DNA from: Aquimarina sp. TRL1
GTDB taxonomy: Bacteria > Bacteroidota > Bacteroidia > Flavobacteriales > Flavobacteriaceae
Length of the DNA stretch: 64,000 nucleotides
Assembly: GCF_013365535.1 (NCBI RefSeq)
Contig: NZ_CP053590.1
Span: 2,594,501 to 2,658,500, forward strand
Direction: 5' to 3'
In this document: positions 10,920-51,272 of the stretch, one piece after another
Position numbering within the stretch: position 1 is the stretch's first letter
How the letters are laid out: every line of letters starts with the position of its first letter
The notes under the pieces: model-generated
What the model was told of the DNA's origin: nothing
The model's database searches: none
What the model saw: the letters and a program-made list of their open reading frames with translations, nothing else
Position numbers and translations under genes: made by a program

Positions 10920-12429
10920 CTGGACAGGACAACGTTGATAAATCCAATGTTTGTCCTGTTTTTTTGTTTTCTAAATCACTGGTTTTTAGTCCAATGCTTT
11001 CAAAAAAAGGATCGGGCTCAAGAGTTCGACACTTGTTTTTTTCAAAAATCAGCTTTTTGTCAAAAATCGAACTCAAAATTTCCTGTTTTCCTTCCCAGTT
11101 CGCTTTATAGTAGAGCTTATCAAGCTTTTCAAGGAATTCTAATGCTCCTTGAATTTGTTTCATATATCCCTTTTTTAGATTTTTTAGTTCCGAATATTCA
11201 AATTCTAAATCTGCTATTCTTTTAATATATCTGGCTTTGCTTCTGTCAAAAGTATTCGGGTCTAATCTTCCTTCAAATAAGCTATCTTCTGCTTTTTCTA
11301 TGGTCTCCTTTAAAGCGGTAATTTCTTCTCTTATTTTGTTCATTTTTCCGGTTCTTACTCTTTGGTTTGCCCCCAGTTTTTCTTTAGCGGCATCGCAATA
11401 CAGCTCGCTAATACTTTCATCAATTGTCACCTGCTTTAAAAGACGGTCAAACATGTCATGGGCATCTTTTGCTCTCAGGCGTTCTTTGCACCCGTTTCTA
11501 CAATGGTAATAATGATAATATACCCCCATTTTACCCTTAGACTTGCTACCTGTTAACGGTCTACCACACCTTGAGCATATTATATGACCTCTTAAGGGTA
11601 GATTTTCATCTTTTGCAGACCATTTTTTTGTCTTTCGTTTTCTTTTATTAAGAATGTCCTGAACTTTGTTGAAAAGCACCTCAGAAACTATTCCCTGATG
11701 CAGTCCTTCTGCATAAAACTCATCTTCATCTTTATAGGCAGGAACTTTTACCTTTCCGATATACACCTTGTTTCTAATAAGAACATGAAATCTTGACCGG
11801 GAAATTTTCAGTCCTTTTTTGTACATTGTTTTTCTAACTTGATCAGCAGGTCTTCCGGTGGTCATCATCTCAAAGGCTTCTCTGACAAGATGTGCCTTTT
11901 CCGACGGAATCAAGGAAGCCTTTCCTTGCTCGGTTCTTTGATTTTTATATCCTATAGGAGCCGTAGAAGTCCAGCACCCTCCTTTGTTTGCTTTTCTTGA
12001 CCCTTCTGTAGTACGAATCGATATCTTGTCATTCTCGACCTCAGGAACCGCTAAATAAACAGCAAGCATAATCTTATTGTCCGGTTGGTCAAGATCCAGT
12101 GGTTGCTCAATAGCATTTACCTTGATTCCTATTCTTCGCAACAGATCAATTACCTGATAGGCTTCTCCTGTGTTTCTGGAGAAACGATCCCACTTGGTAA
12201 AAAGAATTTGATCAACTTGTTTTCGATTGGCTCTACAATATTTAAGAAGCATATTCCAATCAGGTCGATCGAATGTTTTAGCAGAATAATCCTCCTGGAA
12301 GTGTTTCAATATATTATACTCTTTGGCTTGACAATACCTGTATAGGATCTCCTTTTGATACGGAAGACTAAACCCGTGGTCTGCCTGATCATCGGTTGAT
12401 ACCCTGGTGTATAAAACAATGTTTTTCAT
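10873..12429 (-). CDS. Large serine recombinase (integrase)
   Basis: Site-specific recombinase expected to integrate and excise the element. The N-terminal resolvase domain (about residues 1-150) begins YTRVSTDDQ with the nucleophile Ser11 and has the R-S/D pattern DRFSRNTGEA. A recombinase domain follows (about 165-265). A zinc-ribbon has cysteines in ICSRCGRPL and HCRNGCKE (about 284-318), and a long coiled coil covers about 360-450. At 518 residues it has the usual size for large serine integrases. Its last 14 residues (from TQGGFEPP) are encoded by the reverse complement of tRNA-Arg and the preceding dozen by the terminator hairpin, so the real C-terminus in the excised form may differ. 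It heads the leftward lysogeny-side genes. Confidence 0.92.
   Translation of the reverse strand: MKNIVLYTRVSTDDQADHGFSLPYQKEILYRYCQAKEYNILKHFQEDYSAKTFDRPDWNMLLKYCRANRKQVDQILFTKWDRFSRNTGEAYQVIDLLRRIGIKVNAIEQPLDLDQPDNKIMLAVYLAVPEVENDKISIRTTEGSRKANKGGCWTSTAPIGYKNQRTEQGKASLIPSEKAHLVREAFEMMTTGRPADQVRKTMYKKGLKISRSRFHVLIRNKVYIGKVKVPAYKDEDEFYAEGLHQGIVSEVLFNKVQDILNKRKRKTKKWSAKDENLPLRGHIICSRCGRPLTGSKSKGKMGVYYHYYHCRNGCKERLRAKDAHDMFDRLLKQVTIDESISELYCDAAKEKLGANQRVRTGKMNKIREEITALKETIEKAEDSLFEGRLDPNTFDRSKARYIKRIADLEFEYSELKNLKKGYMKQIQGALEFLEKLDKLYYKANWEGKQEILSSIFDKKLIFEKNKCRTLEPDPFFESIGLKTSDLENKKTGQTLDLSTLSCPVTQGGFEPPTLRAEI
10924..10966 (+). terminator. Hairpin terminator between tRNA-Arg and recombinase
   Basis: Arms 10924-10937 and 10945-10959 pair with one bulge and one mismatch and are followed by a run of seven T on the plus strand. 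It would end tRNA transcription. The same bases form codons near the 3' end of the minus-strand recombinase, so it may belong to the integrated element's attachment region. Confidence 0.75.
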
Positions 12430-12868
12430 GTGTCTTCATTTGTTTGTTTTAGGTGATGTAACTGCACATCAATAAGTGTGTAGATTTTCCTTCTTATTTC
12501 TAAGATTTGCTTATCTGTGTATTTTTTTCCGTTTTTTTCTAATTTTTTTCTACAATGCTGAATTGATAACATTTAGTATTTACAAGTCGCGGTATTCTGA
12601 TTTTTTAACAGTCATGCACGCGGGTCTGTATCTCCGGGTGTTGTCCACCTCTGATTACTGGCTACTCTTGCTTTTATAGGCTACTGACTTTAATAAATGG
12701 GCTTTTTCGATTGTTTTTTTTTTTTTTTTTTTTTAGAAAGAAGCTTCTGTTTTTTTTAAGCAGTGCTATTAAAAGCCAGAGGTTTGGGATATGTCATGGG
12801 GTGTTTTCTGATATTATACCTACCTCTTAAGACATATTCTTTTTAGAACTTTTTTTTTAAAAGAGGGC
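12430..12868. other. Intergenic region with 21-T tract
   Basis: No convincing gene between the recombinase start and the next leftward gene. It contains an uninterrupted run of 21 T at 12714-12734, seen on the minus strand as poly-A upstream of the recombinase. A rightward frame at 12476-12679 is low-complexity Phe/Leu-rich and was rejected. Confidence 0.6.
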
Positions 12869-13624
12869 TTACAGCTTTTTTCTGACTGTTCTGTCGATCC
12901 ATACCACCTTTCCGCTGTGCTGCTTGATTTCCAAATCCTGATAATCCCCACTTTTTAAAATCTTAGCTAAAGACTTTTCTTTGTTGATTCGCTGAGTACC
13001 TTCCAATCTGGTCATTTCTCCATTGCTGGAAGTGATTTTAATGTATTTATAAGCTTTACTTCGAATAATATTCAATACCTGTATTTCTTTAGAACTTAAT
13101 CCTTTAAAATCTTTGAAATCAGGATAGGTATATATATCATGCAGTGTATCTCGGATTTGTTTGTTTAAATAAATACAGATGTGATTCTCAATGATACCTT
13201 GTTTAAGATTTTTAAAGTATTGCTTATCATCTAAGATAAGCAACTCCTGAGTATCGTTTAAGATCATATAGACGGCTGTATTGGTCTCAAAAATATGAGT
13301 CATAAAATATTGCAATGCCGGATACATTTTGTTATTTCCTGCTTTAACCGGAGTAAAAAGTCCTTTTTGAGCATTTTTTATCTTTTCTCCAGCTACCTGT
13401 AAGTTTTTTAAATCAATAATAATACTGATCCAAACTAAATCAACAGGACTAAAGTAATTAACATTACCTGAGCCTGAAAATTCTCTATTGTCTTCCAAAA
13501 GCCCAATCTTACGCCAGTTGTGAAGCCTTCGGGAGCTAATTGTTTTTTGAGGTCGCAATTCGAACTGCCTTTCATTTAATAGAATATCGTAGATGTCATA
13601 ATCTATTTTGTTTTCTACTGTCAT
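12869..13624 (-). CDS. MerR-like HTH regulatory protein
   Basis: 251 residues. The N-terminal part resembles a MerR-type winged helix: SSRRLHNWRKIGLL (about residues 27-40), then a segment with FSPVDLVWISIIIDL (about 57-71) and a following LQVAGEKIKNA helix, as in MerR proteins that read an HTH plus a wing. The C-terminal 170 residues are not recognised. It sits between the integrase and the cI-like repressor on the same strand, so a role in lysogeny control or excision is plausible (inference). Confidence 0.55.
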   Translation of the reverse strand: MTVENKIDYDIYDILLNERQFELRPQKTISSRRLHNWRKIGLLEDNREFSGSGNVNYFSPVDLVWISIIIDLKNLQVAGEKIKNAQKGLFTPVKAGNNKMYPALQYFMTHIFETNTAVYMILNDTQELLILDDKQYFKNLKQGIIENHICIYLNKQIRDTLHDIYTYPDFKDFKGLSSKEIQVLNIIRSKAYKYIKITSSNGEMTRLEGTQRINKEKSLAKILKSGDYQDLEIKQHSGKVVWIDRTVRKKL

Positions 13625-13749
13625 TTATTAGGTATTTTACTTATAATGAGCAGCTAATATAGTAAAAACAAGTTACAGTAAGGTAATTCTTGTTAAATTT
13701 TTATTTCAATAGTACTCCAACGAAACAAGTGTTTACTTTATTACAAACC

Positions 13750-14463
13750 TTAGGGCAGCAGATTATTGTCTAGTTGTTTTTCCAGGGATTTGATGTATTT
13801 TTTTAAGGTTTCATTTTCACTGTCTTTAGCTTTTAAAGCTACCTGGTTGGATTGTAAGAGTTCTTTGTAAAGGGTGATTTTGTCATTAGATATGAATTCA
13901 GAAACTTGTCCGGTAGGTTTTAAAACCACAGAAGATAAAGCCAGTATGCTTTGTTTAAAAGCTTGTAAAGCTAAATTAATGGTTTGTACAGCGTTATTTT
14001 GTATTTTAATAAAGGTGACACTGCTTAATTCAACAGCTAAATCCTGTTGAAGTTCCAATAATGCTTTTTTTACCGTGGTGTGCTGAAAGTTTTGGTTTGC
14101 TTTGTTTTGTTCTAAAAACTCTTGTGTTTTTTCAGCTATTAATACCTCGATCTCTTTTTTGTGAATCCGGGAGGTATGAATGTCTCCTTGTTCTATAGTG
14201 AAATCCAACTCAATAGATTCGTCATAGAAATATTCCATCGGGATATTAAAATATCTTGCAAAATTTACCATTGCTAAATGCGGTAAGTGCTTAACTCCTT
14301 CTCTTACCTGAGTAACTACATGTGCATTACTCCCGTATATTTCTTTTCCTATACCTGCGTCACTAAGGCGTTTAAGGTCGTTTAAAGAATATATTCTTCG
14401 GATTTTCTCAATCGCTTTTAAAAATTGTTTGTCTATACAATATAAAATGGGGTTATCTTTCAT
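13750..14463 (-). CDS. cI-like HTH repressor
   Basis: 237 residues. Residues about 10-80 form an XRE-like helix-turn-helix: an IRRIYSLNDLKRLSDAGIG segment, an EIYGSNAHVVTQVREG segment and then HLAMVNFARYFNIPMEYF, the typical end of phage-repressor HTH domains. The rest is helical, with a C-terminal coiled coil from about residue 195 that would give dimers. It is transcribed away from the small HTH gene at 14820, with a 356-base AT-rich gap between them, the usual arrangement of a phage lysis-lysogeny switch. No autoprotease motif was seen. Confidence 0.7.
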   Translation of the reverse strand: MKDNPILYCIDKQFLKAIEKIRRIYSLNDLKRLSDAGIGKEIYGSNAHVVTQVREGVKHLPHLAMVNFARYFNIPMEYFYDESIELDFTIEQGDIHTSRIHKKEIEVLIAEKTQEFLEQNKANQNFQHTTVKKALLELQQDLAVELSSVTFIKIQNNAVQTINLALQAFKQSILALSSVVLKPTGQVSEFISNDKITLYKELLQSNQVALKAKDSENETLKKYIKSLEKQLDNNLLP

Positions 14464-14819
14464 TGCTTATTTATCAGAAAAAACAATCAATACAACATAT
14501 TGATTATTAGTTATTTATGTTTTTAAATATTGTTTTTGAATAAAAAAAGTTATTTTTAAATATGATTTATAAAAAATATTTATATAACTTTGACATGTAG
14601 TTATTTACATCAGTTATAGCAGGCTACCTGTAAAAAAATGAAGCCGTCCTTTTTTAATTATAGTTCAAAATTAATAAAAAAAATTATAAAAAAATAATAA
14701 TTGAATTAAAAAAGACCTATAACTGACCCGGTTTAGACTACATCCTGATACCATTTTTGGTAAACTCCCCCCTCAAAATAAAGCAACCTGAATAAGGAAA
14801 CAAAAAATGTTAAATTTAA
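14464..14819. promoter_or_regulatory. Divergent switch region between repressor and Cro-like gene
   Basis: A 356-base AT-rich gap between divergent regulators. A rightward -7-like element TAACTTTG is at 14585-14592. Several AGTTATTTA-like boxes (around 14510, 14600 and 14615) could be operators, and an imperfect inverted repeat of ATCAATA/TATTGAT lies at about 14485-14505. A leader ending in AAGGAAACAAAAAATGT (14794-14810) recurs in near-identical form upstream of the gene at 17931. Confidence 0.5.
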
Positions 14820-15080
14820 ATGAATGATGCTATGTATACTGAGCAGCATATTGCAAAGACCATTGCAACCTTACACGATCTTGTGCACGATCCTATCAAA
14901 GTCCTGGAATCTCACACTAATTTATCAAGAACCACTATACAACGATTTTTACGCAGAGATCCCATTAAACCAGCTAATACAGCACACTTATTTGAAATCT
15001 GCCTGGATGTTATTGAGAAGCATCAGCAGCGTCAGCAGCAACTCACATTAAAATACAAACGAATCATCCAAAAAGACTAA
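14820..15080 (+). CDS. Small Cro-like HTH protein
   Basis: 86 residues with a helix-turn-helix-like core, LESHTNLSRTTIQRFLRRD (about residues 29-47), followed by NTAHLFEICLDVIEKH. It is the first rightward gene opposite the cI-like repressor, the position of Cro in temperate phages. The assignment rests on size, HTH appearance and position. Confidence 0.55.
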   Translation: MNDAMYTEQHIAKTIATLHDLVHDPIKVLESHTNLSRTTIQRFLRRDPIKPANTAHLFEICLDVIEKHQQRQQQLTLKYKRIIQKD

Positions 15081-15120
15081 TATAAGGTTACGGGTCATTT
15101 ATCAATCATCAAATAAATAC

Positions 15121-15261
15121 ATGAAAATCAGAACGATCAGAAATCAAAAAGCCAAAGAAGTTCTTAACATAATCAAAGGACGTATCCGAAGGCGGGAGAG
15201 CTATGGAACTCCCAAAGAGCCGCTAGTTGTCTTTAAAGTTGTTATTGCTTCTTCCGGCTAG
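15121..15261 (+). CDS. Small basic protein, 46 residues
   Basis: A short frame of 46 codons with ATG start, strongly basic in its first half (IKGRIRRRE) and ending in a hydrophobic stretch. It lies 40 bases after the Cro-like gene and 99 bases before the replication-type gene, on the same strand. Not recognised; it may be a real early gene. Confidence 0.35.
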   Translation: MKIRTIRNQKAKEVLNIIKGRIRRRESYGTPKEPLVVFKVVIASSG

Positions 15262-15360
15262 ATATCCAAGGTTGTATTAAAAAAATAATCCGGAAACATT
15301 CTGCTATGCTATTGGAATGTATGGCGAGCTATACCATCAATTAAAAAACGAAATCAATTT

Positions 15361-16635
15361 ATGTTACTTAATTATTCCATTTGCCTGGAGCGCTTAGACA
15401 ATTATGTAGATTCGTATAATACTTCTTGCCCCTCAGACAGACATCCTTTACGAGGTTCTATGCTACATACGGCAAAAGAGATTGTACGGGTCTATGGCAG
15501 GGCTTTATTAAAGACTAATAAACAGGCTGATATCTCAGCAGAGAATTTACCCTCTTTACGGGCTAATAACATTCAGCTTTCTAAAATCACCAAACTAAGC
15601 TCAAGAACGATTCAACGTCATATCGATAGGTTACAACAAGCTAAGATCATTACCCGTAAAGTATGGCATGGTTCCCGTTCTAATTATGAGTTGTGGATAA
15701 ACCCTAAAATCTTGTGGATAAATGGGTTGATAACTCCAAAATCTTCTAAAATGGAAGAAAATCCAATAAAAACACAAACCACTAACAATCAATACATTAA
15801 AAAAGATAATTTGACAAAATGTCCTCATAGAGATACTAGAAACTCTACTGGAAAAAAGAATAATATACTAATAGCTGTTGATAAGTTCAAAAACAATAGC
15901 ATTACCGCCTTGGCCAAAGCCTTGAGCAGCGATAGGCAACCTAAAAGGTGTTCGCTAGGGCGAACGGGCTTTTTAGATGTTACAAGCTACACACAGTTGA
16001 AAGACCCTGTAACACAGTTGAAAGAGGCTGGCGGGATAAGGGGCAAAGCATCGTCCGATGGTTTAACTTTTAGCAAACCAGAAGGGATAAAAAATATCTT
16101 AAGCGATTGGCAAACCGTCCCATCCCGCCACACTTTCCTGCTGGAGTATGCCGAAAAACTATGGAAACTGGCCCGGGAAAAACTCTATAATGACACCTAT
16201 TTGACCCAGAGCCAATATAACAGTGCTATATCATTACTATATAAATGGTACAGTCCTGTAGCCAATCAAAAGCTGGAAAAGGTGCATAAAATCTACTGCC
16301 AGCGTATTGAAATGGTACAAAAGTACATTGCTCGAGATCCTGAAAAGAGATATGTACAGCTGCCTTCCCTTTATTTTGATCCTGACAACCCCCATGGATT
16401 TACAGGAACAAAACCCTGGTACAAAAAACAAAAAGAATATCGAAAGACCTTGAGTCTGGAGCTGATCCTTCGTAATCAAATCCAAAAATTTAAACGCAAT
16501 GAGCAGAAAGATACCGCAGAGGGACGACCACGTATTACCGTGTATAAGGAGTGCTGGCAAAATATCTCAAAGCTAGCAGACCCTATCCTGTTAAACCGTT
16601 TTGAAAAAGCAGCTCAAAACATTGTACAACTCTAA
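15361..16635 (+). CDS. Winged-helix replication-initiator-like protein
   Basis: 424 residues. The N-terminal domain (about residues 5-120) has a winged-helix pattern: LSKITKLSSRTIQRHIDRLQQAKII as recognition helix region, then a wing with GSRSNYELWINP. This layout is common in helix-turn-helix Rep proteins of Bacteroidota plasmids and phages. A Lys/Ser-rich linker follows (130-220), then a helical C-terminal domain with YLTQSQYNSAISLLYKWY and a conserved-looking LPSLYFDPDNP segment. No polymerase, primase or HUH motif was seen. Position in the early region and the iterons at 19.5 kb support a replication role (inference). Confidence 0.5.
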   Translation: MLLNYSICLERLDNYVDSYNTSCPSDRHPLRGSMLHTAKEIVRVYGRALLKTNKQADISAENLPSLRANNIQLSKITKLSSRTIQRHIDRLQQAKIITRKVWHGSRSNYELWINPKILWINGLITPKSSKMEENPIKTQTTNNQYIKKDNLTKCPHRDTRNSTGKKNNILIAVDKFKNNSITALAKALSSDRQPKRCSLGRTGFLDVTSYTQLKDPVTQLKEAGGIRGKASSDGLTFSKPEGIKNILSDWQTVPSRHTFLLEYAEKLWKLAREKLYNDTYLTQSQYNSAISLLYKWYSPVANQKLEKVHKIYCQRIEMVQKYIARDPEKRYVQLPSLYFDPDNPHGFTGTKPWYKKQKEYRKTLSLELILRNQIQKFKRNEQKDTAEGRPRITVYKECWQNISKLADPILLNRFEKAAQNIVQL

Positions 16636-16655
16636 TTTATCAAAAAAGTCAATCA

Positions 16656-17141
16656 ATGAAACGACAAACAAATCAAAAAAACCTGTCTTTAAAGCAAAAA
16701 CTAAAACATGCAATAGCACATCTTCATGCCGATGTGTTTGGGTATGAAAAAAGTGTCACCCGTAATGTGATTTCTTATTTTAAAAAGTTATCTGAAAATA
16801 CGGGAATTCCTTCTGATCAAATCATTGTCAGAATGTTTAAACAGCCGGGAACTATTAAAACCTATGTCCATAAAGATGGAAAAGTTGTTCGGGAGGTCAC
16901 TGTTGGAGAACTCATAGAACTCTTTAGTGGTAGTTCCCAACTGACTGGTTTGGAATATAAGATTGTTGAAAAGATACTGCGGTTTATGGATGATCTAAAA
17001 GCAAGTCATGGTGATGATTCTACAGAATTTCACATCTGTTTTTTAGCACAACAAAGCCAGGTAAGAATACTGGCTGTATATGGGAATAAAGTCACTCAAT
17101 CTATTGCGTTAAAAACACTTATCAAATATTTCACCTTATGA
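16656..17141 (+). CDS. Hypothetical protein, 161 residues
   Basis: Unrecognised soluble protein with a basic N-terminus, starting 20 bases after the replication-type gene and overlapping the next gene by four bases (ATGA). A mixed helix/strand segment contains YVHKDGKVVREVTVGELIEL. Translational coupling with the following 98-residue gene suggests a common early function. Confidence 0.7.
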   Translation: MKRQTNQKNLSLKQKLKHAIAHLHADVFGYEKSVTRNVISYFKKLSENTGIPSDQIIVRMFKQPGTIKTYVHKDGKVVREVTVGELIELFSGSSQLTGLEYKIVEKILRFMDDLKASHGDDSTEFHICFLAQQSQVRILAVYGNKVTQSIALKTLIKYFTL

Positions 17142-17434
17142 GAAAGAAAAGCAGTAAAGTCAGCAGCAAACCCAAAAAACAATATTTCAAAAAAGATTCT
17201 TTGTATGTAATGCGGGTATATTTCCAGGATGGAGGAAAAAGAAGTTTTTATTCCAGAGATTGGAAAAATGAACGATCTGCTACTAAAAATTACCATATTG
17301 GGTTTAGTCGCTACCGCAAACTCATTCATAATTGGGGTGATAAGGCCAGAACTATCTTAATCTTTCACAGACCGACAGATACCTTAGTAGCCAAATATTA
17401 CAAAGGTGCAGAAGTCCCTATAACCAAGCAGTAG
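17138..17434 (+). CDS. Small basic hypothetical protein, 98 residues
   Basis: Strongly basic N-terminus (about nine Lys/Arg in the first 22 residues), followed by a strand-rich part with YVMRVYFQDGGKRSFYSRDW. Overlaps the preceding gene by four bases. Not recognised; the charge suggests a nucleic-acid-binding role (inference). Confidence 0.65.
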   Translation: MRKKSSKVSSKPKKQYFKKDSLYVMRVYFQDGGKRSFYSRDWKNERSATKNYHIGFSRYRKLIHNWGDKARTILIFHRPTDTLVAKYYKGAEVPITKQ

Positions 17435-17477
17435 ACTTTGTGATTATAACACACCAAAATTATAAAAACCGTTATAT

Positions 17478-17732
17478 ATGAATATTGATAAACTCACAAA
17501 AAACTCAGTCGCTACACTCTTTTGTCCGGATAGGAATATCTGTTTTAATGATGCACTGGATAAGCATGTTGGCAGATCATACCAGATGAGTCTTGGTAAA
17601 CCTTTAGCGAGTCTGTAGCTTGAGATACCATCTCTGGATATGTTTTCAAATCTATATTGTTTCATTACAAAATATCAGGCTGGATATTACGCTGGTTTCC
17701 CTGCGAGAAAAAGCGTATCGCTACTTACATAG
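17478..17732 (+). pseudogene. Small frame split by an in-frame TAG
   Basis: An ATG frame of 46 codons (17478-17618) ends at a TAG and continues in the same frame for another 37 codons to 17732 (LEIPSLDMFSN, then a hydrophobic/aromatic part). Either the first 46-residue product is a real small protein, or an 83-residue gene carries an amber stop. No family recognised. The rest of the gap up to 17930 holds no convincing gene. Confidence 0.3.
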
Positions 17733-19700: not shown

Positions 19701-19709
19701 AAATCCACA

Positions 19710-19717
19710 GGTACGAA
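19710..19717. promoter_or_regulatory. GGTACGAA box upstream of methyltransferase operon
   Basis: Located 29 bases before the ATG at 19746 in the context CCACAGGTACGAAAT. The copy before the late region (39116-39123) has the context CACCAGGTACGAAAAT, so the match extends slightly beyond the box. Candidate operator or activator site. Confidence 0.45.
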
Positions 19718-41026: not shown

Positions 41027-41030
41027 TACG

Positions 41031-41780: not shown

Positions 41781-41794
41781 TGATACCATAGCTT

Positions 41795-42412: not shown

Positions 42413-42415
42413 AAC

Positions 42416-42643: not shown

Positions 42644-42674
42644 GATGTGTTATTAACCATTAAACAAAACTATA

Positions 42675-43136
42675 ATGATTGCAGGAGAAACTGAGTACTT
42701 ACTGGAAGATGATTTTTTCAGAAGTAAAGCCCAGCGTGAAAAACGTCGAGCTGCCCGTAAGGCAAGACGATTAAAAAGGCGTCGTATAAGAAACGCTGAG
42801 CGCCAAAGAAGAAGGGATATAAAAGCTACAAAAATGGAAGGTCGTCAAAAGCGAAGAACTTTTTTATCTAAACTAGGAGCGGTCTATCGTGATCTTGGAG
42901 GGGCAGGTTCCATTGGTAAAAGCATAGATACTATGTTAAACAACCCTATTGACAAGAAGTCTTCTGTGCAGAACCAGGAAGATTTCACAGTAGCCTTAGA
43001 ATCGTCCAAAAAAAATAACAAACCCTCATACACCCCTTGGATTATTGGAGGATCGGTAGTACTGGGGGTAGTTGTCATTGGAGCGGTGATCTATTCTCAG
43101 AACCAGAAAAATTATCTGGGTGTTATAAAACAATAA
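42675..43136 (+). CDS. Arg-rich protein with C-terminal membrane segment
   Basis: 153 residues. Residues about 15-65 are extremely Arg/Lys-rich (KAQREKRRAARKARRLKR), followed by a short soluble part and one membrane segment at about 120-140. Same plan as the gene at 41795, without obvious sequence identity. Candidate DNA-binding virion membrane protein. Confidence 0.6.
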   Translation: MIAGETEYLLEDDFFRSKAQREKRRAARKARRLKRRRIRNAERQRRRDIKATKMEGRQKRRTFLSKLGAVYRDLGGAGSIGKSIDTMLNNPIDKKSSVQNQEDFTVALESSKKNNKPSYTPWIIGGSVVLGVVVIGAVIYSQNQKNYLGVIKQ

Positions 43137-43144
43137 GCTATCAT

Positions 43145-43897
43145 ATGATAATCCCTATTGCTGCCAATAAAGAATCTTTTACTATCGGGTTACGCTTTCT
43201 GGCTAAACGAAAGCTTAGCATTGGAATCTGGGTATATGATCCATACCGTCCCTATACCCATTATTTTAGAAGAAAAGTGCAACTCTCTAAAGGACAAAAC
43301 AGAAAGATAGAAATATGCCTTCCTGTTAGTGCAGAATATTTGGAGTTGAAAATCTATGATAAACAGGGAGGCATTGGTGGCTTTAAGCTCACTGATTTTA
43401 AGATTACGAAAATGCCCCCTCCAGTAATATGGGCAAGTCCGCAACAACAACGTTTTATGGATTTTGCCATTGATTTTGCGCAAAAGGCAGGATACCTGCC
43501 CACTGGGTTTTATGATAGCCCTACACAAGAGTTTTTGTTCCAATACCTGCCAGCTATTACAGATACAAGCGGGAAGGAATTAATTACCCCTGCCCGAATC
43601 CACCGAAAGATGCCAAGGGTACAAATTTCTAAACAGATCTTTAGAACCTTGAGCATCCCGGTTCGGGTATTTATTCTATCTCATGAAGGGTGTCATTGGT
43701 TTTTAAATGTACGTAGTGAAAAAAAAGCTGATCTGTGTGGAATACGACATTATTTGGATTATGGCTTTCCTAAGATAGAAGCTGTGTACGCTGCTACTAA
43801 AATATTCGGGAGATACCCTGATTTGGTGGGAGCTAAGCAAATACAAAGAACCAAAGACATTATTGCCTTTATTGACCAATATACCACTGAAAGATGA
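43145..43897 (+). CDS. HExxH metallopeptidase-like protein
   Basis: 250 residues from ATG 43145. A strand-rich N-terminal half (about 1-90), then a helical part with LSHEGCHWFLN: His180, Glu181 and His184 make an HExxH zinc site, and Glu192 with Asp196 in EKKADLCG resembles the ExxxD third-ligand helix of gluzincins. It could be a capsid-maturation or entry peptidase. The overlap with the next gene is four bases (ATGA). Confidence 0.6.
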   Translation: MIIPIAANKESFTIGLRFLAKRKLSIGIWVYDPYRPYTHYFRRKVQLSKGQNRKIEICLPVSAEYLELKIYDKQGGIGGFKLTDFKITKMPPPVIWASPQQQRFMDFAIDFAQKAGYLPTGFYDSPTQEFLFQYLPAITDTSGKELITPARIHRKMPRVQISKQIFRTLSIPVRVFILSHEGCHWFLNVRSEKKADLCGIRHYLDYGFPKIEAVYAATKIFGRYPDLVGAKQIQRTKDIIAFIDQYTTER

Positions 43898-45540
43898 AAA
43901 AAAACACCTCCATTGTAATAGCAAGTACGCTGACAGGTCTTACACTACTTTGGTTTTGGTATCTGCATAACCGATCAAAAAATAAGCTTGTGCTATCTCC
44001 AAGAAAAGCCCCTGTAGTTGATCCTCAGAAGAGCTATAAAGCAGAAGACCATTTTATCCATACTCCGGTTGTATCACCTGTGGTATCCCGGAAAAAATCG
44101 AAAAACAACGCAGCTGTAAATCTATTGTCCTCTAAAGAAGATACCCAATTAATCCTTGGTAACACCTCTGAAAAGACCAGAGAGATACACCTGTGGAGTG
44201 GTCATAAAAAACCACCAATAAGCCCTTTGCTACCAGGAGATGTTCCTAAACATAAGAAAAATACGCTTTCTATAAACAATACATCACAACAAGGAATTTA
44301 TCCCCAGGGGATGGTCTTTAACCCTGCCAATGGATATACCTATATCGCATACCAACTATCTGGTACTATTGATATAATACATTCAAAAGGAGTGATACAA
44401 ACGTTATCCCTTGCTAGGCACACCCCCATAGTAAACAATCCTTCGCCGGTAGACCTGACCGTACACTCTATTGCTGATTCTAACAACTACGGAAAGGTCT
44501 ATTCGGCGAATATTTTAAACAATACTGTAAGTGTGATTACCTCTGATATGGAGATAACCAATACGATTGTAGTTGGAACACGTCCAATAGGGATTTGTTT
44601 TAACCCGGTAAATCAAATGCTCTATGTTGCTAATCTCTCTGATGATACAGTAAGTATTATTGACACCCAAACAGAAAGTGTATTAATAACAGTCGGTGTT
44701 GGAAAGTCTCCACGATCTATTACCATTGATCCTATAACAGGATATGCTTATGTTCTTACCTATGGAGACAATAGTATCAGTGTACTCAATACCGATTTTC
44801 AGGTTATTGAAATCATTGCAGATATAGCTGAGTCCCTGACCACAGCTGCCTATTATCCGGCGAATAACCATTTGTATGTAGTAGCTTCCCAACAAAATCA
44901 GGTAATCCCCATTGATCTGGAAACCTATACTGTAGCTCCTGCAATAGTTGTAGGGAACAATCCTTATAAGATCATATATCACCCAAAAACAGAATTGCTC
45001 TATGTAGGTAACAGAGAGGATGCTACCTTTTCTCTGATCGATATAACACAAACAGTAGTGGCGACCCTTTCTTTAGGAAAGGTAAATACAGGTATTGCCA
45101 TTGATACTACTACCGACAGGCTTTACAGTAGTGATCCGGTTTCAGCCTCTATCGCTGTTATCTCATATAGTAATCATCCTCAGGCAATACATATCAACCA
45201 GCAGTACTATGAAAAAAGAGAAGATTTTATATACAACCCTGTTTTGGTAGAGCACGTGAAAATTATTTTCTCCGGGGCTTCCCCTATTTCTGTATTAGAA
45301 CTCGAAAAGCAAACAATCAGTGGAAAATCAAAGAGCTATCCCATTTCATTATCGAAGTATACCCACCCCCGGAATGTCGCAAAAGTATATGAGGTAACAG
45401 GCTTAAAAGACTCCCTGCTTGATGGTAGTCATGGATGGAAATTTAAGATTCAGCCTGGTCAGACCATTAGTATGATAATCTACTATCATCAAATCAAAAG
45501 AGAACAGTTAAACCCAAATTATAAAACACCTATGTTATGA
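43894..45540 (+). CDS. Membrane-anchored YVTN-type beta-propeller
   Basis: 548 residues. One membrane segment near residues 5-24, a polar linker to about 125, then repeated blades of about 42 residues (for example IVVGTRPIGICFNPVNQMLY, followed by VANLSDDTVSIID) to about residue 430, and a separate strand-rich C-terminal domain. The repeats match YVTN/NHL-like propellers used for binding. As the largest protein of the late region, with an envelope anchor, it is the best candidate for a receptor-binding or spike protein (inference). Confidence 0.65.
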   Translation: MKKNTSIVIASTLTGLTLLWFWYLHNRSKNKLVLSPRKAPVVDPQKSYKAEDHFIHTPVVSPVVSRKKSKNNAAVNLLSSKEDTQLILGNTSEKTREIHLWSGHKKPPISPLLPGDVPKHKKNTLSINNTSQQGIYPQGMVFNPANGYTYIAYQLSGTIDIIHSKGVIQTLSLARHTPIVNNPSPVDLTVHSIADSNNYGKVYSANILNNTVSVITSDMEITNTIVVGTRPIGICFNPVNQMLYVANLSDDTVSIIDTQTESVLITVGVGKSPRSITIDPITGYAYVLTYGDNSISVLNTDFQVIEIIADIAESLTTAAYYPANNHLYVVASQQNQVIPIDLETYTVAPAIVVGNNPYKIIYHPKTELLYVGNREDATFSLIDITQTVVATLSLGKVNTGIAIDTTTDRLYSSDPVSASIAVISYSNHPQAIHINQQYYEKREDFIYNPVLVEHVKIIFSGASPISVLELEKQTISGKSKSYPISLSKYTHPRNVAKVYEVTGLKDSLLDGSHGWKFKIQPGQTISMIIYYHQIKREQLNPNYKTPML

Positions 45541-45983
45541 GAAAAACCATTCCCATCGCCTTAGCAGAATATGGCGTTACAGAACATAAAGGGGCTACCT
45601 ATCACAATCCCAGAATCCTTCAGTATTTTAAAGAAACAGGTCACTTATGGGTGGTAGGTGATCAGACTGCCTGGTGTTCTTGTTTTGCCAGTTGGGTAGC
45701 TAAAAAAGCAGGCTATAATTATAGTAGAAAACTAACTGCCCGCTCCTGGCTATCAATAGGACAAGCGACCTATATCCCTGTAGTGGGAGATATCGTTGTA
45801 TTTTGGAGAGAGCATTTAAGTAGCTGGAAAGGACATGTGGGGTTTTACATCAACCACAGCCGCAATAGAAATTATATCTATTGTCTTGGAGGCAATCAAA
45901 ACAATAGCGTATGTATCAAAGCTTATCCAGTAAAACGATTATTAGGTTTTCGTCAGATACATATTAAATCCTCTCAAGGATAA
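45537..45983 (+). CDS. CHAP/NlpC-like peptidoglycan hydrolase (TIGR02594-like)
   Basis: 148 residues. Catalytic Cys47 in AWCSCFASWVA, His100 in KGHVGFYI and LGGNQNNSV near residue 117 match the Cys-His-(Asn/Asp) order of the small TIGR02594/CHAP-type amidases. No signal peptide. Its start overlaps the propeller gene by four bases. Expected to cleave peptide cross-links or the amide bond during entry or lysis. The next 180 bases have no intact gene (a 21-codon frame at 46003 may be a frameshift remnant). Confidence 0.75.
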   Translation: MRKTIPIALAEYGVTEHKGATYHNPRILQYFKETGHLWVVGDQTAWCSCFASWVAKKAGYNYSRKLTARSWLSIGQATYIPVVGDIVVFWREHLSSWKGHVGFYINHSRNRNYIYCLGGNQNNSVCIKAYPVKRLLGFRQIHIKSSQG

Positions 45984-46163: not shown

Positions 46164-46619
46164 ATGCCAACTGTTTTACAAATAGAAAATAAACATTTTC
46201 TTATTCCAGAGAAAAAAGACCCCTGTGAGCTTTGGGTAAGTTATTTTAACAGCCTGAAAAAACAGGTCGGGACTTCCAATGCCCGAACCTTATGGTTGAT
46301 TACATGGAAATATAATGGCAATACCCAATGTAGTACCAATCCTAATTTTAACAAATGGCTACAAAGTAACCAGATAGATGTATCTACCATTGCCAGTCGT
46401 ACCCTGGCCGATTTTTCTGCCATCGGTAGTAATATATTAGGGTTTGGAAAGAACATCTCTACTGTATTACAATGGGGAATTCCCTTGACACTGGCAGGAT
46501 TACTCATTGGAATTATTGTGGTTCTTTGGAGAACTTCAAAAACTATGGAGGTGTCTGACCTGACAATGCTTACCCCTACTGGAAGGGCAATGAAAGGATT
46601 AAAACTGGCAGGGAAATGA
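46164..46619 (+). CDS. Single-TM late-region protein, 151 residues
   Basis: N-terminal soluble domain with Trp and Asn (WLITWKYNGNTQCSTNPNF), then one membrane segment at about 108-130 and a short tail. Overlaps the next gene by four bases. Unrecognised. Confidence 0.6.
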   Translation: MPTVLQIENKHFLIPEKKDPCELWVSYFNSLKKQVGTSNARTLWLITWKYNGNTQCSTNPNFNKWLQSNQIDVSTIASRTLADFSAIGSNILGFGKNISTVLQWGIPLTLAGLLIGIIVVLWRTSKTMEVSDLTMLTPTGRAMKGLKLAGK

Positions 46620-47122
46620 AAACAAAAGCATCTCATATCAAACAATTACAATGGGCATCCACACTGATATCCATGCTACTTATGGTTATACTCTACAGGC
46701 ATTTTACAAAAAGAAAACAAAAGCGACTTTCTGTAAAAATGCAACAGGCATTGTTACAAAAATTTAACCCTGAAAAAGGATTTTTACAGGAAAAAGCCTT
46801 TGATGAAACCTATGCTGAGAGGGTTATAAAAATCGTTCCTGAGCGTATCGCCATACTTAAACCTGGTGTTGCACAAAACAAGGCAAAGCTACTGCATTCA
46901 GGATTTAAACCCTGGTATGTATGGGGAGGTGATAACGAACAACTCATCTATGGAGTACTTACCTCTCTTAAAGATAAAGTACAAGTTTCTCAGGTAGCCA
47001 AAGCATATCTTGATCTGTATAAAGTACCTCTAAAGGAGCAATTACAAAAAGAGTTGGACACAAAAGAAATCGGAAAAGTACTATCTATAGTAACACGGTT
47101 AAATCCTTATACTCTTATATAA
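46616..47122 (+). CDS. Single-TM late-region protein, paralog A
   Basis: 168 residues. N-terminal membrane segment (about 14-32) and a helical soluble domain. The C-terminal 60 residues contain LTSLKDKVQVSQVAKAYLDLYK and end in NPYTLI. The next gene has the same length and matching blocks (IKDKTQVASISKAFWVDYKK and NYSLI), so they are tandem paralogs. The domain is a helical repeat probably exposed outside the membrane. Confidence 0.65.
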   Translation: MKTKASHIKQLQWASTLISMLLMVILYRHFTKRKQKRLSVKMQQALLQKFNPEKGFLQEKAFDETYAERVIKIVPERIAILKPGVAQNKAKLLHSGFKPWYVWGGDNEQLIYGVLTSLKDKVQVSQVAKAYLDLYKVPLKEQLQKELDTKEIGKVLSIVTRLNPYTLI

Positions 47123-47134
47123 AACAACAGCTAT

Positions 47135-47641
47135 ATGCAAACCAGAAACAATATACAATGGACGGTAACAGGACTTGCCCTAACAGGATTCCTTATAGGA
47201 GGATATCTGGTATATATTAACAATAAAAAGAACCATACCAAAGGTATGCTTTCTCCAACAATACCGGAAGACAAAGAGCAATCTTCCCAGAGGGTAATAG
47301 AAGAACCGAATTGGAAAAACCCATATGATATGAATTATCTCAAAGATGTTAAAAAATGGCTAGGAAAAAGGAAGATACGAAAACTACCTCATAACAAAGC
47401 CAGAGAGTATGCAAGGATACTAAAGAGAGCCAAAGGAAGATGGAGAGATGATACCCAGGCTGTAACCAGTGTTTTTACTCAAATAAAAGACAAGACACAG
47501 GTAGCCAGTATCTCCAAAGCATTCTGGGTAGACTATAAAAAAGACATGTGGCAATACCTAAGGAGTTTTCTAAGTGCCAAAGAGATGGAAAAGTATGTAC
47601 ACCGTCCTGTAAGGAAGTTAGATAACTACAGCTTGATATAA
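47135..47641 (+). CDS. Single-TM late-region protein, paralog B
   Basis: 168 residues, membrane segment about 9-27, same C-terminal helical domain as the gene at 46616. Thirteen bases downstream of it. Confidence 0.65.
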   Translation: MQTRNNIQWTVTGLALTGFLIGGYLVYINNKKNHTKGMLSPTIPEDKEQSSQRVIEEPNWKNPYDMNYLKDVKKWLGKRKIRKLPHNKAREYARILKRAKGRWRDDTQAVTSVFTQIKDKTQVASISKAFWVDYKKDMWQYLRSFLSAKEMEKYVHRPVRKLDNYSLI

Positions 47642-47668
47642 ATAAAAGAGAGCAAAAAACAATCAGAT

Positions 47669-48106
47669 ATGAGAAAAGAGTCAGTCCCAAACAAAAATAA
47701 CCTTACATCGGTATGGATTGCCATAACCGCCTTTTCTGTTTTAACAGGAGCTGGGTATTGGTTGTATCGAAAACGTAAGATGGCAAAAGAAAATGAGGGT
47801 ATGACATGGCAATCTGGTATAAGACCTTCCTCTTCTTCTCTATGGAGCAGGACTTCAAGGTTTAAGTGTAGTAGTACTAAGTATCCGTTGACCTATGGGA
47901 ACTGCCATGAAGATGTAAAGATATTACAACGTTACCTTAAGGTTTACAATGAAGATTTGGGATATTCTGGTAAAAACAGAGATGGTGTAGACGGGCAATT
48001 TGGAGCCAAGACTGCCAAAGCAGCCAAACAGCGATTAAAGAAGGATCTATTTACCAAAGAGGATATCCAGTCAATAAAAACAAGTTTAAAAATGATGAAA
48101 CGATGA
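47669..48106 (+). CDS. Membrane-anchored peptidoglycan-binding protein
   Basis: 145 residues. Membrane segment about 13-29, then a PG-binding type-1 domain (about 70-130): CHEDVKILQRYLKVYNEDLG followed by GVDGQFGAKTAKAAKQRL, the hallmark D-G-FG-T-A pattern. It would hold the virion or lysis complex to the wall. Overlaps the next gene by four bases. Confidence 0.75.
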   Translation: MRKESVPNKNNLTSVWIAITAFSVLTGAGYWLYRKRKMAKENEGMTWQSGIRPSSSSLWSRTSRFKCSSTKYPLTYGNCHEDVKILQRYLKVYNEDLGYSGKNRDGVDGQFGAKTAKAAKQRLKKDLFTKEDIQSIKTSLKMMKR

Positions 48107-48546
48107 ATACCCAGAAACACACAAAGCAAGTATTTTGGATGGCAACCGTAATTACAGGGGCAACCCTTTTGTATTACCTGTTACAACGAAAAAAAAATAA
48201 AGACGACACACCAGATACAATTACCCCTTCTATACTCAGACCCATTGCTACTGAAGTAAAACAACAAACTCAAACCAGTGTGAAACACAAGCAGCCCCAA
48301 GTAGAGCAGCTTCCTATTCCACAACAAAGCGTTTTTCCTTTAAAACCTGGTAGCAAGGGCAAAGAAGTAGAACGTTTACAGATATGGCTACTTAGGAATC
48401 ATGGATGGAAAGGAGAAATCACCCGTATCTATGATGATCAGACCTTGAAACTGGTTAGAAAAAGTCTTAAAAAGGATCAGGTAGATAAACATACTTATCA
48501 AAAGAAAAAAATGGGAATTCCCATTTGTCAACAATTTCAACCCTAA
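48103..48546 (+). CDS. Membrane-anchored protein with degenerate PG-binding domain
   Basis: 147 residues. Membrane segment about 11-27, a Gln/Pro-rich linker, then a PG-binding-like segment (LKPGSKGKEVERLQIWLLRNH) whose second half (IYDDQTLKLVRKSL) keeps the D-T-L pattern but has lost FG. Pairs with the preceding gene. Confidence 0.6.
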   Translation: MNTQKHTKQVFWMATVITGATLLYYLLQRKKNKDDTPDTITPSILRPIATEVKQQTQTSVKHKQPQVEQLPIPQQSVFPLKPGSKGKEVERLQIWLLRNHGWKGEITRIYDDQTLKLVRKSLKKDQVDKHTYQKKKMGIPICQQFQP

Positions 48547-48553
48547 TTAAGAT

Positions 48554-48796
48554 ATGGCAGTACAGAAAAAAAGAAAACTGGTTAACTACCTGGATGCCCT
48601 GGTAGATAAGGACGGGTTAAAAACAGAAGTTACCATTACTCTTACCGACCAGACCATGACACGAATTATTATTAGCTTTTTAGTATCTGGTATTGCAATA
48701 GTAGCAATATCTCACCTGATTAAAAACTATTTCCCCAATATGCAATTGGGAGCAATTCAAAGAGAACTCATTGATATTAAAAAACAACTTAAATAA
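48554..48796 (+). CDS. Small single-TM protein, 80 residues
   Basis: A basic N-terminus, one membrane segment (about 36-56) and an amphipathic C-terminal helix (QRELIDIKKQLK). Immediately upstream of the holin-like gene. Unrecognised. Confidence 0.6.
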   Translation: MAVQKKRKLVNYLDALVDKDGLKTEVTITLTDQTMTRIIISFLVSGIAIVAISHLIKNYFPNMQLGAIQRELIDIKKQLK

Positions 48797-48802: not shown

Positions 48803-49147
48803 ATGGAAACAGTATATCAAAACATCATCGCCTATCTGAATACTTTGGACTGGTCATACATTATCACATTTATACTTTTGTGCTATGCCATTAATCATTA
48901 TGCCTTTACCCAATGGATTAAAAACGGATTAGGAATTACCCTAAAAACCCGATATCGTGTCTTGCTTGTTGGACTGCTCTACGGAATTGTAATTTTCTTT
49001 ATAAGAGCCTATACCTTATCTCAGATAGAAAGGCTTTTTAGATCCTTTATTTTTGCTGTAGTATTTCACAAGTTCATTCTGGAGCTACTAACAAAAAGAA
49101 TTTTTCCTGGCAAAAGAGAAAACAAATCAAATAACGATTACTTATGA
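48803..49147 (+). CDS. Holin-like three-TM protein
   Basis: 114 residues with hydrophobic segments at about 18-36, 50-68 and 74-95 and a charged C-terminal tail, the plan of class I holins. Next to the spanin-like pair and lytic enzymes. Overlaps the following gene by four bases. The name is inferred from size, topology and neighbours. Confidence 0.5.
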   Translation: METVYQNIIAYLNTLDWSYIITFILLCYAINHYAFTQWIKNGLGITLKTRYRVLLVGLLYGIVIFFIRAYTLSQIERLFRSFIFAVVFHKFILELLTKRIFPGKRENKSNNDYL

Positions 49148-49506
49148 AATGGGAAAACTATGCATTGTCCTTTTTTATAGGAGCCGGGTTAGTTCTTATA
49201 CTATTATTATGGATTATTCCCATAGAAAATAATCAGGAGGATAAAAAATCGATACAAAAAATAAGGGAACTGGAGCATCATAATCAAATGCTTACAAAGG
49301 TCAATGCTATATTGGATGATAAAGTTTTTGAGCTGGAGATACAGGCAGACAGCCTTAGAACTTTACTAATTCAGGATAAAGAACAAATTACAGGATTAAA
49401 ACAACGAAAAAATGAAAAAATATATCATATCAGCAGGTATAATGATGATGAGTTATTTCGGTATTTCTCAAGATTTAACTCCACAAGTACTACTGATCAA
49501 AAATAA
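49144..49506 (+). CDS. Rz-like inner-membrane spanin candidate
   Basis: 120 residues. N-terminal membrane anchor (about 8-26) followed by a long coiled coil (about 35-90, IQKIRELEHHNQMLTKVNA). This is the usual plan of i-spanins. Its last 95 bases overlap, in another frame, the following gene, which has a signal peptide, as in Rz/Rz1 arrangements. Confidence 0.55.
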   Translation: MKWENYALSFFIGAGLVLILLLWIIPIENNQEDKKSIQKIRELEHHNQMLTKVNAILDDKVFELEIQADSLRTLLIQDKEQITGLKQRKNEKIYHISRYNDDELFRYFSRFNSTSTTDQK

Positions 49507-49831
49507 GAAACATTTTTGCTTCAATTCCTTTCAATCCAAAGAGTTGGCTAAACTACTTGAGAAGGGAAGCTATAATGACTCCCTGGTTACCCAACTATCA
49601 ATAACCAATAATCGGTTAGTTGATTTACTCCAAAAAAAAGACAGCCTGATTAGTTTTAAAAATAGCCAGTTATATAACTACAAAGGAATCATTGATAATA
49701 AAGAGCAACACATTACTGTGCTCAATAATATAGCCAAACAAACAAACCAAAAACTAAAAAAAGGAAAGTTACACAAGATGTTGCTTCTGGGAAGTCTTGT
49801 TGTTGCATCAACCTTACTACTAAGTAAATAA
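49412..49831 (+). CDS. Spanin-partner-like protein with signal peptide and C-terminal TM
   Basis: 139 residues. Signal peptide (about 1-18, cleavage likely after GISQ), a coiled coil (about 60-105) and a hydrophobic C-terminal segment (about 119-136). There is no lipobox, so it is not a classical outer-membrane o-spanin, and the C-terminal segment would embed it in a membrane. Embedded start within the upstream gene supports the pairing. Confidence 0.5.
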   Translation: MKKYIISAGIMMMSYFGISQDLTPQVLLIKNKKHFCFNSFQSKELAKLLEKGSYNDSLVTQLSITNNRLVDLLQKKDSLISFKNSQLYNYKGIIDNKEQHITVLNNIAKQTNQKLKKGKLHKMLLLGSLVVASTLLLSK

Positions 49832-49923: not shown

Positions 49924-50553
49924 ATGTCTGTAATCAAAGAACGTTTTGTAATCCGTTATTATTCCTATGCCCAAAAGGCAGCCAAGTCTTCTGGTATTCC
50001 GGTATTGTTTGCCCTGGCACAAAGTGCATTAGAATCCGGATGGGGTAAATATATAAAGGGAAATATGATGTTTGGAATCAAAAGAGGAGCAGGTATCAAT
50101 TATGGAGGGTGGCAAGGAGATACTCAGTATATCACTACCACAGAATACTCCTCTAAGCCCACAAGAAACTTCCCTTTTGTTTATCCGGGATATCCTATAC
50201 AAATCAATAATGGAAAATGGAAGTATAAGATAAAAGATGTATTTAGAGCCTATACCACCCCTTTTTATTCTTTTATAGATTGGGCAGGAATGTTGTTTAA
50301 AAGCAGACGGTATCAAAATGCACTTTATCATAAGAAAAACCCGTACCGATTTGCTGAAGAAATTGCAAAGGCTGGATATGCAACAGACCCCAATTATGCA
50401 AACAAGATTAAACGTATAATGAAAGAAATACAGCAGATTATTATACTAAAAAAATTAAACAAAAACCAAAAGGAAATAGGTCTTCCCTTAATCCTTATGG
50501 GAGTTAGTCTGTTGATAATAAGTGTGGTAGTAATCAATCGTAAACCTAAATAG
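49924..50553 (+). CDS. Glucosaminidase-like peptidoglycan hydrolase with C-terminal TM
   Basis: 209 residues. The FlgJ/GH73-type signature FALAQSALESGWG (about 29-41) carries the catalytic Glu37, followed by NMMFGIKRG and later FAEEIAKAGYATDPNYANKI, the typical end of the family. A membrane segment at about 185-204 anchors it. Cleaves glycan strands between GlcNAc and MurNAc. The 92 bases before it have only a 24-codon hydrophobic frame (49834) that I do not call. Confidence 0.8.
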   Translation: MSVIKERFVIRYYSYAQKAAKSSGIPVLFALAQSALESGWGKYIKGNMMFGIKRGAGINYGGWQGDTQYITTTEYSSKPTRNFPFVYPGYPIQINNGKWKYKIKDVFRAYTTPFYSFIDWAGMLFKSRRYQNALYHKKNPYRFAEEIAKAGYATDPNYANKIKRIMKEIQQIIILKKLNKNQKEIGLPLILMGVSLLIISVVVINRKPK

Positions 50554-50703
50554 ATGAACGCTGATAAAGGTAATATATGGATTAATGTGATTTTCGGAGT
50601 CTTTCTAACTGTTAGTATTGCTAAAGGAGGAATTTCTATTTATGAATGGCATCAGAAAAGAAAAGCCAAAAAACAATGTAGGTGTGGTTCAAAAAAAACG
50701 TGA
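50554..50703 (+). CDS. Small single-TM protein overlapping the M15 peptidase start
   Basis: 49 residues from an ATG directly after the stop of the glucosaminidase gene (TAGATG). One membrane segment (about 8-26) and a Lys/Cys-rich tail (KRKAKKQCRCGSKK). It overlaps the next gene by 62 bases in another frame. This compact layout is like the spanin pair upstream. Confidence 0.5.
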   Translation: MNADKGNIWINVIFGVFLTVSIAKGGISIYEWHQKRKAKKQCRCGSKKT

Positions 50704-51175
50704 ATATATTTGGTTTTCAATAGCTTTAACTTCTATTGTCGTGGTAGGATGCTGGATATTACTTAAAAAAAAGCAACCTAAAGTTGACCTGAAAAAATTT
50801 GATAGTCCGGATCTCCCTGGCTCAGGGGTATGCATGGATAAAAAGTTGATTAAAATGCTACTGCAATTACAAAACAAATCAGGATATCCTGTTTTTGACA
50901 ATATAAACTCTGGAGCTAGAACTGCATATTGGAATAAAAAGGTAGGTGGGGTATCAAATTCCTCTCATAAAATACCTACTTGTAAGGCAGTAGATATTCA
51001 TACTCCAACTAAAAGCATTAGAAATAAAATCGTAGTAATTGCTAAACTAGTAGGATTTAAACGAATTGGCGTTGGAAAAACGTTTGTACACCTGGATAAC
51101 GACCATACCAAACGGCAAAACATTGCATGGGGATATCCTTCTGGTGCTAAACCACCAATTAACCCATTTATTTGA
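50642..51175 (+). CDS. M15-type DD-carboxypeptidase/L-Ala-D-Glu endopeptidase-like protein
   Basis: 177 residues from ATG 50642 (a TTG at 50618 is possible). Membrane segment about 24-41, then an M15-like domain with SGARTAYWNKK (about 90-100), SSHKIPTCKAVDI (His109, Asp118) and FVHLDND (His150, Asp152), the zinc-ligand order of M15 peptidases; two extra residues lie between His109 and Asp118 compared with the usual SxHxxGxAxD. Last gene of the rightward region. Confidence 0.75.
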   Translation: MNGIRKEKPKNNVGVVQKKREYIWFSIALTSIVVVGCWILLKKKQPKVDLKKFDSPDLPGSGVCMDKKLIKMLLQLQNKSGYPVFDNINSGARTAYWNKKVGGVSNSSHKIPTCKAVDIHTPTKSIRNKIVVIAKLVGFKRIGVGKTFVHLDNDHTKRQNIAWGYPSGAKPPINPFI

Positions 51176-51272
51176 AATAATAAAAGAGAAAACTACTTTC
51201 AATTGCATTTATTAAAACAATACATTCTGAATTTCTGACTACCTCCCTATATTACAAATAGTGCCTCTTGTA
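51176..51272. other. Strand-switch gap, probable right boundary region
   Basis: AT-rich gap of 97 bases between convergent genes, with no clear terminator. It contains CCTCCCT near 51241, also present in the tRNA-Arg T arm, but this short match alone is not evidence for an att site. Confidence 0.3.

Follow-up and report, generated by a model that had tools for sequence, protein, structure and literature searches.

A probable tailless, temperate Bacteroidota virus of about 72.5 kb beside a tRNA-Arg gene of Aquimarina sp. TRL1

The genome of the probably marine Aquimarina sp. TRL1 comprises 5.4 Mb in two contigs, and the subject of this report is a stretch of 64,000 nucleotides (positions 2594501–2658500 of contig C1), termed the window. 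A region of the window beside a tRNA-Arg gene is, with a probability of about 0.68, part of a temperate, tailless Bacteroidota virus of approximately 72.5 kb that probably has an internal membrane; that virions are formed is something we infer. Upon induction the element would be excised and then replicated from iteron-like repeats with the aid of the g05 protein. The product of g31 would assemble as a jelly-roll shell over a membrane holding several of the proteins g32–g45, the g24 motor would fill this shell with DNA and the products of g46–g50 would lyse the cell, with the wall enzymes and the β-propeller protein g38 acting in entry. The lysogen would repay its host through exchangeable cargo for anti-phage defence and type VI secretion. 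Coordinates are window positions (numbers above 64000 continue past the window on the same contig), 50 open reading frames (ORFs; g01–g50) were taken across 10873–51175, and features lie on the forward strand unless stated otherwise.

Central to this reading is g24 (33648–34580), which encodes a predicted genome-packaging ATPase of the FtsK-HerA group. At the sequence level the protein gives Pfam matches to AAA_22 and Zot, both below the cut-offs. Its structure was modelled with a predicted local distance difference test (pLDDT) score of 88, and the top structural match, by a margin, is B204, the genome-packaging NTPase of Sulfolobus turreted icosahedral virus (STIV); the motors TcpA, VirB4 and FtsK are also similar. 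No membrane stretch was detected with the 19-residue hydropathy window used throughout. By its modelled fold, g24 is a packaging-type ATPase of the FtsK-HerA/A32 kind that characterizes PRD1-like viruses, in agreement with the original prediction, which had been made from the sequence alone and had proposed such an ATPase here. Sequence-profile searches of the PDB with g24 and g31 gave no convincing relative among solved structures. When proteins with a Walker-A motif were listed for three elements of this family, only g24 and the MoxR protein were common to all, in a listing whose pattern misses g13.

The late block (g30–g50, 21 ORFs) begins with a small membrane protein (g30, 39086–39382; conserved part approximately 56 amino acids, aa), followed by the putative coat protein g31 (39418–40314, with a start near 39484 indicated by relatives). 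As had been described, g31 is strand-rich, with an acidic N-terminus and a basic C-terminus flanking a β-sandwich core at 39670–40218. The model of the core (183 aa), of low confidence (pLDDT 63), shows a single β-sandwich that is compatible with a jelly roll. Membrane stretches were flagged in 13 of the 21 late ORFs, the original prediction having noted at least ten single-pass membrane proteins. In the g32–g36 group (40394–43136), four of the proteins carry a membrane stretch close to the C-terminus; the other one (42416–42643) has 75 aa. Next is a putative zinc peptidase, g37 (43118–43897), with an HExxH motif, which we take to be the signature of such enzymes; H189, E190 and H193 are invariant in all six aligned sequences. 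The longest late ORF, g38 (43894–45540, 548 aa), encodes a β-propeller according to domain scans, has a hydrophobic N-terminus by eye, and is a candidate receptor-binding or entry protein. Domain scans also bear out the three wall hydrolases proposed earlier, namely a CHAP amidase/peptidase (g39, 45537–45983), a glucosaminidase (g49, 49924–50553) and an M15 peptidase (g50, 50618–51175), the latter two with a membrane stretch. Between them, g40–g45 (46164–48796) include three membrane-flagged proteins (g40, g42 and g45) and three with hydrophobic N-termini by eye (g41, g43 and g44), of which g43 gives a weak peptidoglycan-binding match. The putative lysis genes g46–g48 (48803–49831) encode a holin-like protein with two membrane stretches and two overlapping membrane proteins placed as spanins would be. 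The holin call is weak (Phage_holin_2, E = 0.0071, below the cut-off).

The integration site determines the true extent of the element. The tRNA-Arg(tcg) gene occupies 10846–10920, and the stop codon of g01 (10873–12429, reverse strand) falls within it; g01 encodes a large serine recombinase (PF00239 Resolvase, E = 3.3e-28; PF07508 Recombinase, E = 1.5e-12; PF13408). Both the target and the recombinase are as originally predicted. Two further copies of the tRNA 3′ end (the 17 bases starting at 10904) lie at 83362 and 83530, each with 14 of 17 bases matched, and between 10.8 and 104 kb no third site on that strand reaches at least 14 of 17. Empty sites were compared at 11 loci of the same genus that link yqeY to a tRNA-Arg: in two of them (L111 and L120) the tRNA is followed by sequence resembling that behind 83362, in a third (L118) by part of that sequence and in a fourth (L114) by sequence resembling that behind 83530, while the remaining seven lack a right-side match. 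The element runs from 10904 to 83362 or 83530, a length of 72.46 or 72.63 kb that extends approximately 19.5 kb beyond the window; because the two right-end copies of the tRNA sequence lie 168 bp apart, there are two possible ends. The originally predicted size of approximately 40 kb (10920–51180) must accordingly be abandoned, as that span covers backbone and cargo of a larger element. An 11-bp exact match was discarded as evidence for the right end, being at about chance level; the right end is argued from the longer tRNA match together with the empty sites. No support was found for the idea that the right arm is a separate island in tandem at the same tRNA, since the junction at 51.2 kb matches the tRNA 3′ end at 10 of 17 bases, the same as random stretches; a decayed site there is possible. 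The sequences that follow the remnants at 83362 and 83530 come after an intact tRNA in one relative or another, and this succession of two remnants hints that the site had been used for integration before.

The same genome contains a second element of this family (C1, approximately 1036041–1118494), which spans 82.4 kb between exact 43-bp repeats of a tRNA-Met, and in one relative (G036) the interval is 70.6 kb, bounded by a 17-bp repeat from tRNA-Met in which the tRNA end is shared as well. Another tRNA-Arg carries a g01-like recombinase, 65% identical, in the same arrangement. In Dokdonia and in two genomes of Aquimarina the copies start at the 3′ end of the transfer-messenger RNA (tmRNA) gene and other copies lie beside tRNA-Arg; a right attachment site was not found for the tmRNA-integrated copies, nor for the copy in G071. 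The Dokdonia and Aquimarina copies cease to be similar where g50 ends; the element may end there, or cargo may begin. In the right arm of the second copy (oriented coordinates 76034–83586), three evenly spaced ORFs of 426 aa are each followed by a reverse ORF, and this array is probably a repeated cassette or an insertion sequence (IS).

Relatives of the element occur in many related bacteria, and their gene order is conserved. The g24 ATPase was found in eight of 299 genomes of the family, TRL1 included; Kordia algicida OT-1 has three copies, two of them close together, and Aquimarina agarilytica ZC1 has two loci. Across nine contexts, conserved blocks alternate with variable stretches: in the eight that are measurable g31–g50 spans 11.7–13.3 kb, g12–g14 spans 5.6–5.8 kb in eight contexts, and the four stretches separating the blocks measure anywhere from 8 bp to 24.9 kb; the first one includes some conserved genes as well. 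This constancy of the late block supplies the synteny that the original prediction had called for. Two Kordia algicida copies are approximately 97% identical in shared blocks and differ at the hotspots and after g50. A scan of 84,980 genomes with g31 returned 54 loci, with titles naming Flavobacteriaceae genera as well as Flavobacteriales and Cytophagales, and the best-scoring named relatives are Aquimarina. Genes g32–g46 are present in 40–54 of these loci, with the exception of g34 (four of 54), and many loci are truncated where a contig or the 10-kb flank ends. Among the 38 genomes with g31, the g24 ATPase occurs in 36 and the g05 protein in 27; in the two without the ATPase, the contigs that carry g31 measure 35.5 and 57.4 kb. 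The distance from g05 to g31 in 25 same-contig pairs ranges from 20.1 to 85.0 kb (median 32.7 kb) and is at most 37.4 kb in 20 of them.

Identity between copies from different genera is high. Around g31, Aquimarina and Dokdonia share 94.0% DNA identity over 16.4 kb, Ulvibacter and Winogradskyella 95.7% over 13.6 kb, and Patiriisocius is 94.9% and 94.4% identical to these last two, respectively, over approximately 11 kb. Several of the cross-genus pairs involve uncultured isolates or metagenome-assembled genomes; the cultured A. agarilytica ZC1 is 93.5% identical to Dokdonia over 15.8 kb. Judged from such sequence comparisons, the relatives have moved between genera recently. The ratio of nonsynonymous to synonymous substitution (dN/dS) lies between 0 and 0.22 over 15 genes in two pairs, which at the sequence level indicates strong purifying selection on the backbone. 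For both g24 and g31 it is 0.01 in the Dokdonia–Aquimarina pair, and the Kordia pair gives 0.10 and 0.06, respectively. Among the highest values in the Dokdonia–Aquimarina pair are those of g38 and g50.

Searches of existing collections bear on whether the lineage has been described. Among 50,697 phage records there is no match for g24 or g31, one for g38 and one for g13, and among 72,556 plasmid records there is none for g24 or g37. No description of such a lineage was found in the open-access library searched, so that within this library and the phage, plasmid and viral-contig collections the lineage is undescribed, as the failure of the original prediction to place it in any family had implied. 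We consider it an even chance that it represents a deep, unrecognized lineage of tailless temperate Bacteroidota viruses of approximately 70–82 kb, with a single-jelly-roll coat, a B204-type motor and anti-phage and type VI cargo carried at multiple hotspots, the core proteins of which are absent from the collections searched.

The element shares features with several known systems. Its B204-type packaging ATPase is a likeness to STIV, STIV2 and the PRD1/PM2-type viruses, and the abundance of membrane proteins and wall enzymes in the late block presumably recalls PRD1; the differences are that profiles of g24 and g31 have no sequence match among solved structures and that g31 models as one sandwich. 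Viruses of the P23-77/SH1 type (Singelaviria) have single jelly-roll coats formed by two coat proteins, and here there is one candidate, g31, with a low-confidence model (pLDDT 63). The Inoviridae possess a Zot-type ATPase with a membrane anchor and the small gene set of filamentous phages; by contrast, the Zot match of g24 is weak, the protein has no membrane stretch, and both size and gene set differ. With integrative conjugative elements (ICEs) and defence islands the element shares a recombinase, tRNA and tmRNA targets, and defence and type VI cargo, but a packaging-type ATPase and a coat candidate take the place of the relaxase and coupling protein (PF03432 and PF12696). The Flavobacterium phage FLiP (Finnlakeviridae) is likewise tailless and contains a membrane, and its host belongs to the same class. 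According to PMC5894146, FLiP has a circular single-stranded DNA genome and no packaging ATPase, whereas this element has such an ATPase and approximately 72.5 kb. The element in PMC12324425 is a different one, of 4.6 kb.

Several observations weigh against the virus reading, and some lend weight to rival explanations. No double-jelly-roll match stands out among the structural matches of g31, and a double jelly-roll coat is not supported; of the predicted jelly-roll capsid, a compatible single sandwich stands, at low confidence. The prokaryotic double-jelly-roll viruses have genomes of roughly 7–18 kb, as given in PMC5894146, in contrast to the approximately 72.5, 70.6 and 82.4 kb and the many hotspots seen here. 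By its motor the element would work like a tailless virus of the PRD1/STIV type; its genome is not small, and membership in that group is not established. The spread of sizes (70.6–82.4 kb) favours partial packaging or the lack of a rigid capsid limit. It is conceivable, but unlikely, that we are dealing with a satellite or a domesticated particle, in which part of the element or host DNA is packaged or a helper is needed; the several-fold excess over 7–18 kb and the outlying g05–g31 spacings of 55–85 kb would fit. Against this, a recombinase, a Rep-like protein, an ATPase and a coat candidate are all encoded by the element itself, and the two Kordia copies differ at hotspots while remaining alike in shared blocks, as would be expected of autonomous units. 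Finally, 2.9 million viral contigs, scanned from 2 to 6 short peptide patterns, contain no match for g24, g31 or g37; virions may be rare, or virus finders and short-pattern scans may overlook them.

That lack of viral relatives, the ICE-like look (up to 82 kb and many hotspots) and the resemblance of g24 to TcpA, VirB4 and FtsK would also suit an integrative element with a new cell-contact transfer machine, in which g24 pumps DNA across the envelope and the channel is built of the membrane proteins and wall hydrolases. We regard this as unlikely: B204 leads the g24 matches, g24 has no membrane stretch, the shared Walker-A proteins are few (g13 aside), and the block ends in endolysin-like genes. 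Moreover, in a search of 12 genomes every match to the PF03432 relaxase (two genomes) and the PF12696 coupling protein (five genomes) lies outside the elements, upholding for these two families the claim that conjugation genes are lacking; in TRL1 both are on contig C2. An ordinary tailed prophage with terminase, portal and coat diverged past recognition is very improbable, even though PHROG scans link g24 to one profile for a 'terminase large subunit' (9.9e-5), g25 to profiles for a 'virion structural protein' (3.7e-5) and for a tail (0.039), g39 to baseplate/tail-lysozyme (9.4e-30) and minor tail (0.0054) profiles, and one late protein to a 'tail protein with endopeptidase domain' (6.6e-6). 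These matches probably reflect a shared P-loop, enzyme domains or cargo: the fold of g24 is nearest to B204, the CHAP and endopeptidase matches would be to enzyme domains, and g25 lies in a cargo hotspot and is unmatched in the nine contexts. The PHROG scans, which covered 40 of the 50 ORFs (g30 and nine others left out), recognized no portal, and the longest late ORF is a propeller within a block rich in membrane proteins; a tailed prophage was set aside on these grounds. The predicted absence of terminase, portal and tail genes holds for the portal in the ORFs scanned, with weak or enzyme-domain matches remaining for the others.

If virions are made, a widespread group of bacterial viruses has so far gone unnoticed, perhaps since neither its coat nor its motor is known to marker-based virus finders. 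The size of tailless jelly-roll bacterial viruses would be stretched several-fold, and whole cassettes of defence genes and type VI effectors would have a virus-borne route between genera. Kordia algicida OT-1 and Aquimarina agarilytica ZC1 are sequenced strains that allow a direct test.

The early genes are concerned with regulation and replication. On the reverse strand, g02 (12869–13624) encodes a MerR-like helix-turn-helix (HTH) regulator (MerR_1, E = 1.7e-4) and g03 (13750–14463) a putative repressor, divergent from the putative Cro-like gene g04 (14820–15080); the predicted repressor/Cro pair rests on position and appearance, and of this group g02 has a domain match. A replication-initiator-like protein (g05, 15361–16635) shows weak O-like (5.3e-5) and winged-helix matches. 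The predicted iterons are present as five iteron-like repeats (19457–19685) in a candidate replication origin (19457–19710). Next are an N6-adenine methylase with a long N-terminal part (g11, 19746–22622) and a strawberry-notch helicase (g13, 23044–27327), both from domain scans, and a MoxR-type AAA ATPase (g14, 27361–28317; AAA_5, E = 3.7e-12; dN/dS 0.01 and 0.02 in two pairs). These genes correspond to the DarB-like and MoxR-like content suggested earlier, 'DarB-like' being the label of the original prediction. Domain scans and context comparison mark g15 (28322–29332) as a conserved protein without assigned function, and g22 (32213–32671) is a putative DnaA-type HTH protein, to which a Bac_DnaA_C match (2.3e-6, in one of 28 proteins) probably belongs.

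Cargo occupies defined hotspots. Hotspot H2 (34600–39080), with DUF4760, MliC and SH3 proteins among others, corresponds to a g24-to-g31 gap of 2.1–24.9 kb over nine contexts. Hotspot H3 (51486–64000 and on to approximately 83.3 kb, reverse strand) carries a VasX/Rhs cassette, adjoined at 58494–59216 by a CAAX-protease-like (Rce1) gene; past the window are an Hcp/TssD type VI secretion gene, a gene that matches Cap4 nuclease slightly short of the cut-off (2e-5; PADLOC LmuA, 6.3e-12) and an IS-type integrase. The first 2.5 kb of the right arm (51480–54006) recurs at 93% identity in the second copy, where it sits between the ATPase and the late block; the ORFs that come next are alike in size and order at both places. 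A partial g50-like gene at 139582–139863 in Kordia algicida OT-1 suggests the 3′ end of g50 as a possible insertion point for right-arm cargo. In relatives, 89 of the 95 cargo proteins chosen were run through PADLOC, with 25 of the 274 families that matched being listed; among the matches listed are type I and IIG restriction enzymes, a prokaryotic Argonaute (pAgo) model and others. Of nine cargo proteins scanned singly, six matched.

A few wider matches complete the picture. Relatives of g13 number 126 among the plasmid records, the best-ranked being on Persicobacter plasmid pPP10 (33% over 83%). In the tailed Bacteroides phage BS-TP4, g11- and g13-like regions (9176–13633) lie inside one very long gene (1511–17686). 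In pPP10 and BS-TP4 only these two regions were recognized, with no further backbone gene at an E threshold of 1e-3, and g13, having led to plasmids and one tailed phage, was dropped as a guide to relatives. A 13.5-kb unverified phage record from human stool (MT836048.1) has a g38-like propeller at 8783–9460, and at E below 0.01 no further backbone gene is shared. Contig C2 of TRL1 (approximately 64 kb) encodes both a relaxase and a coupling protein (TraG-D_C) and is probably a conjugative plasmid.

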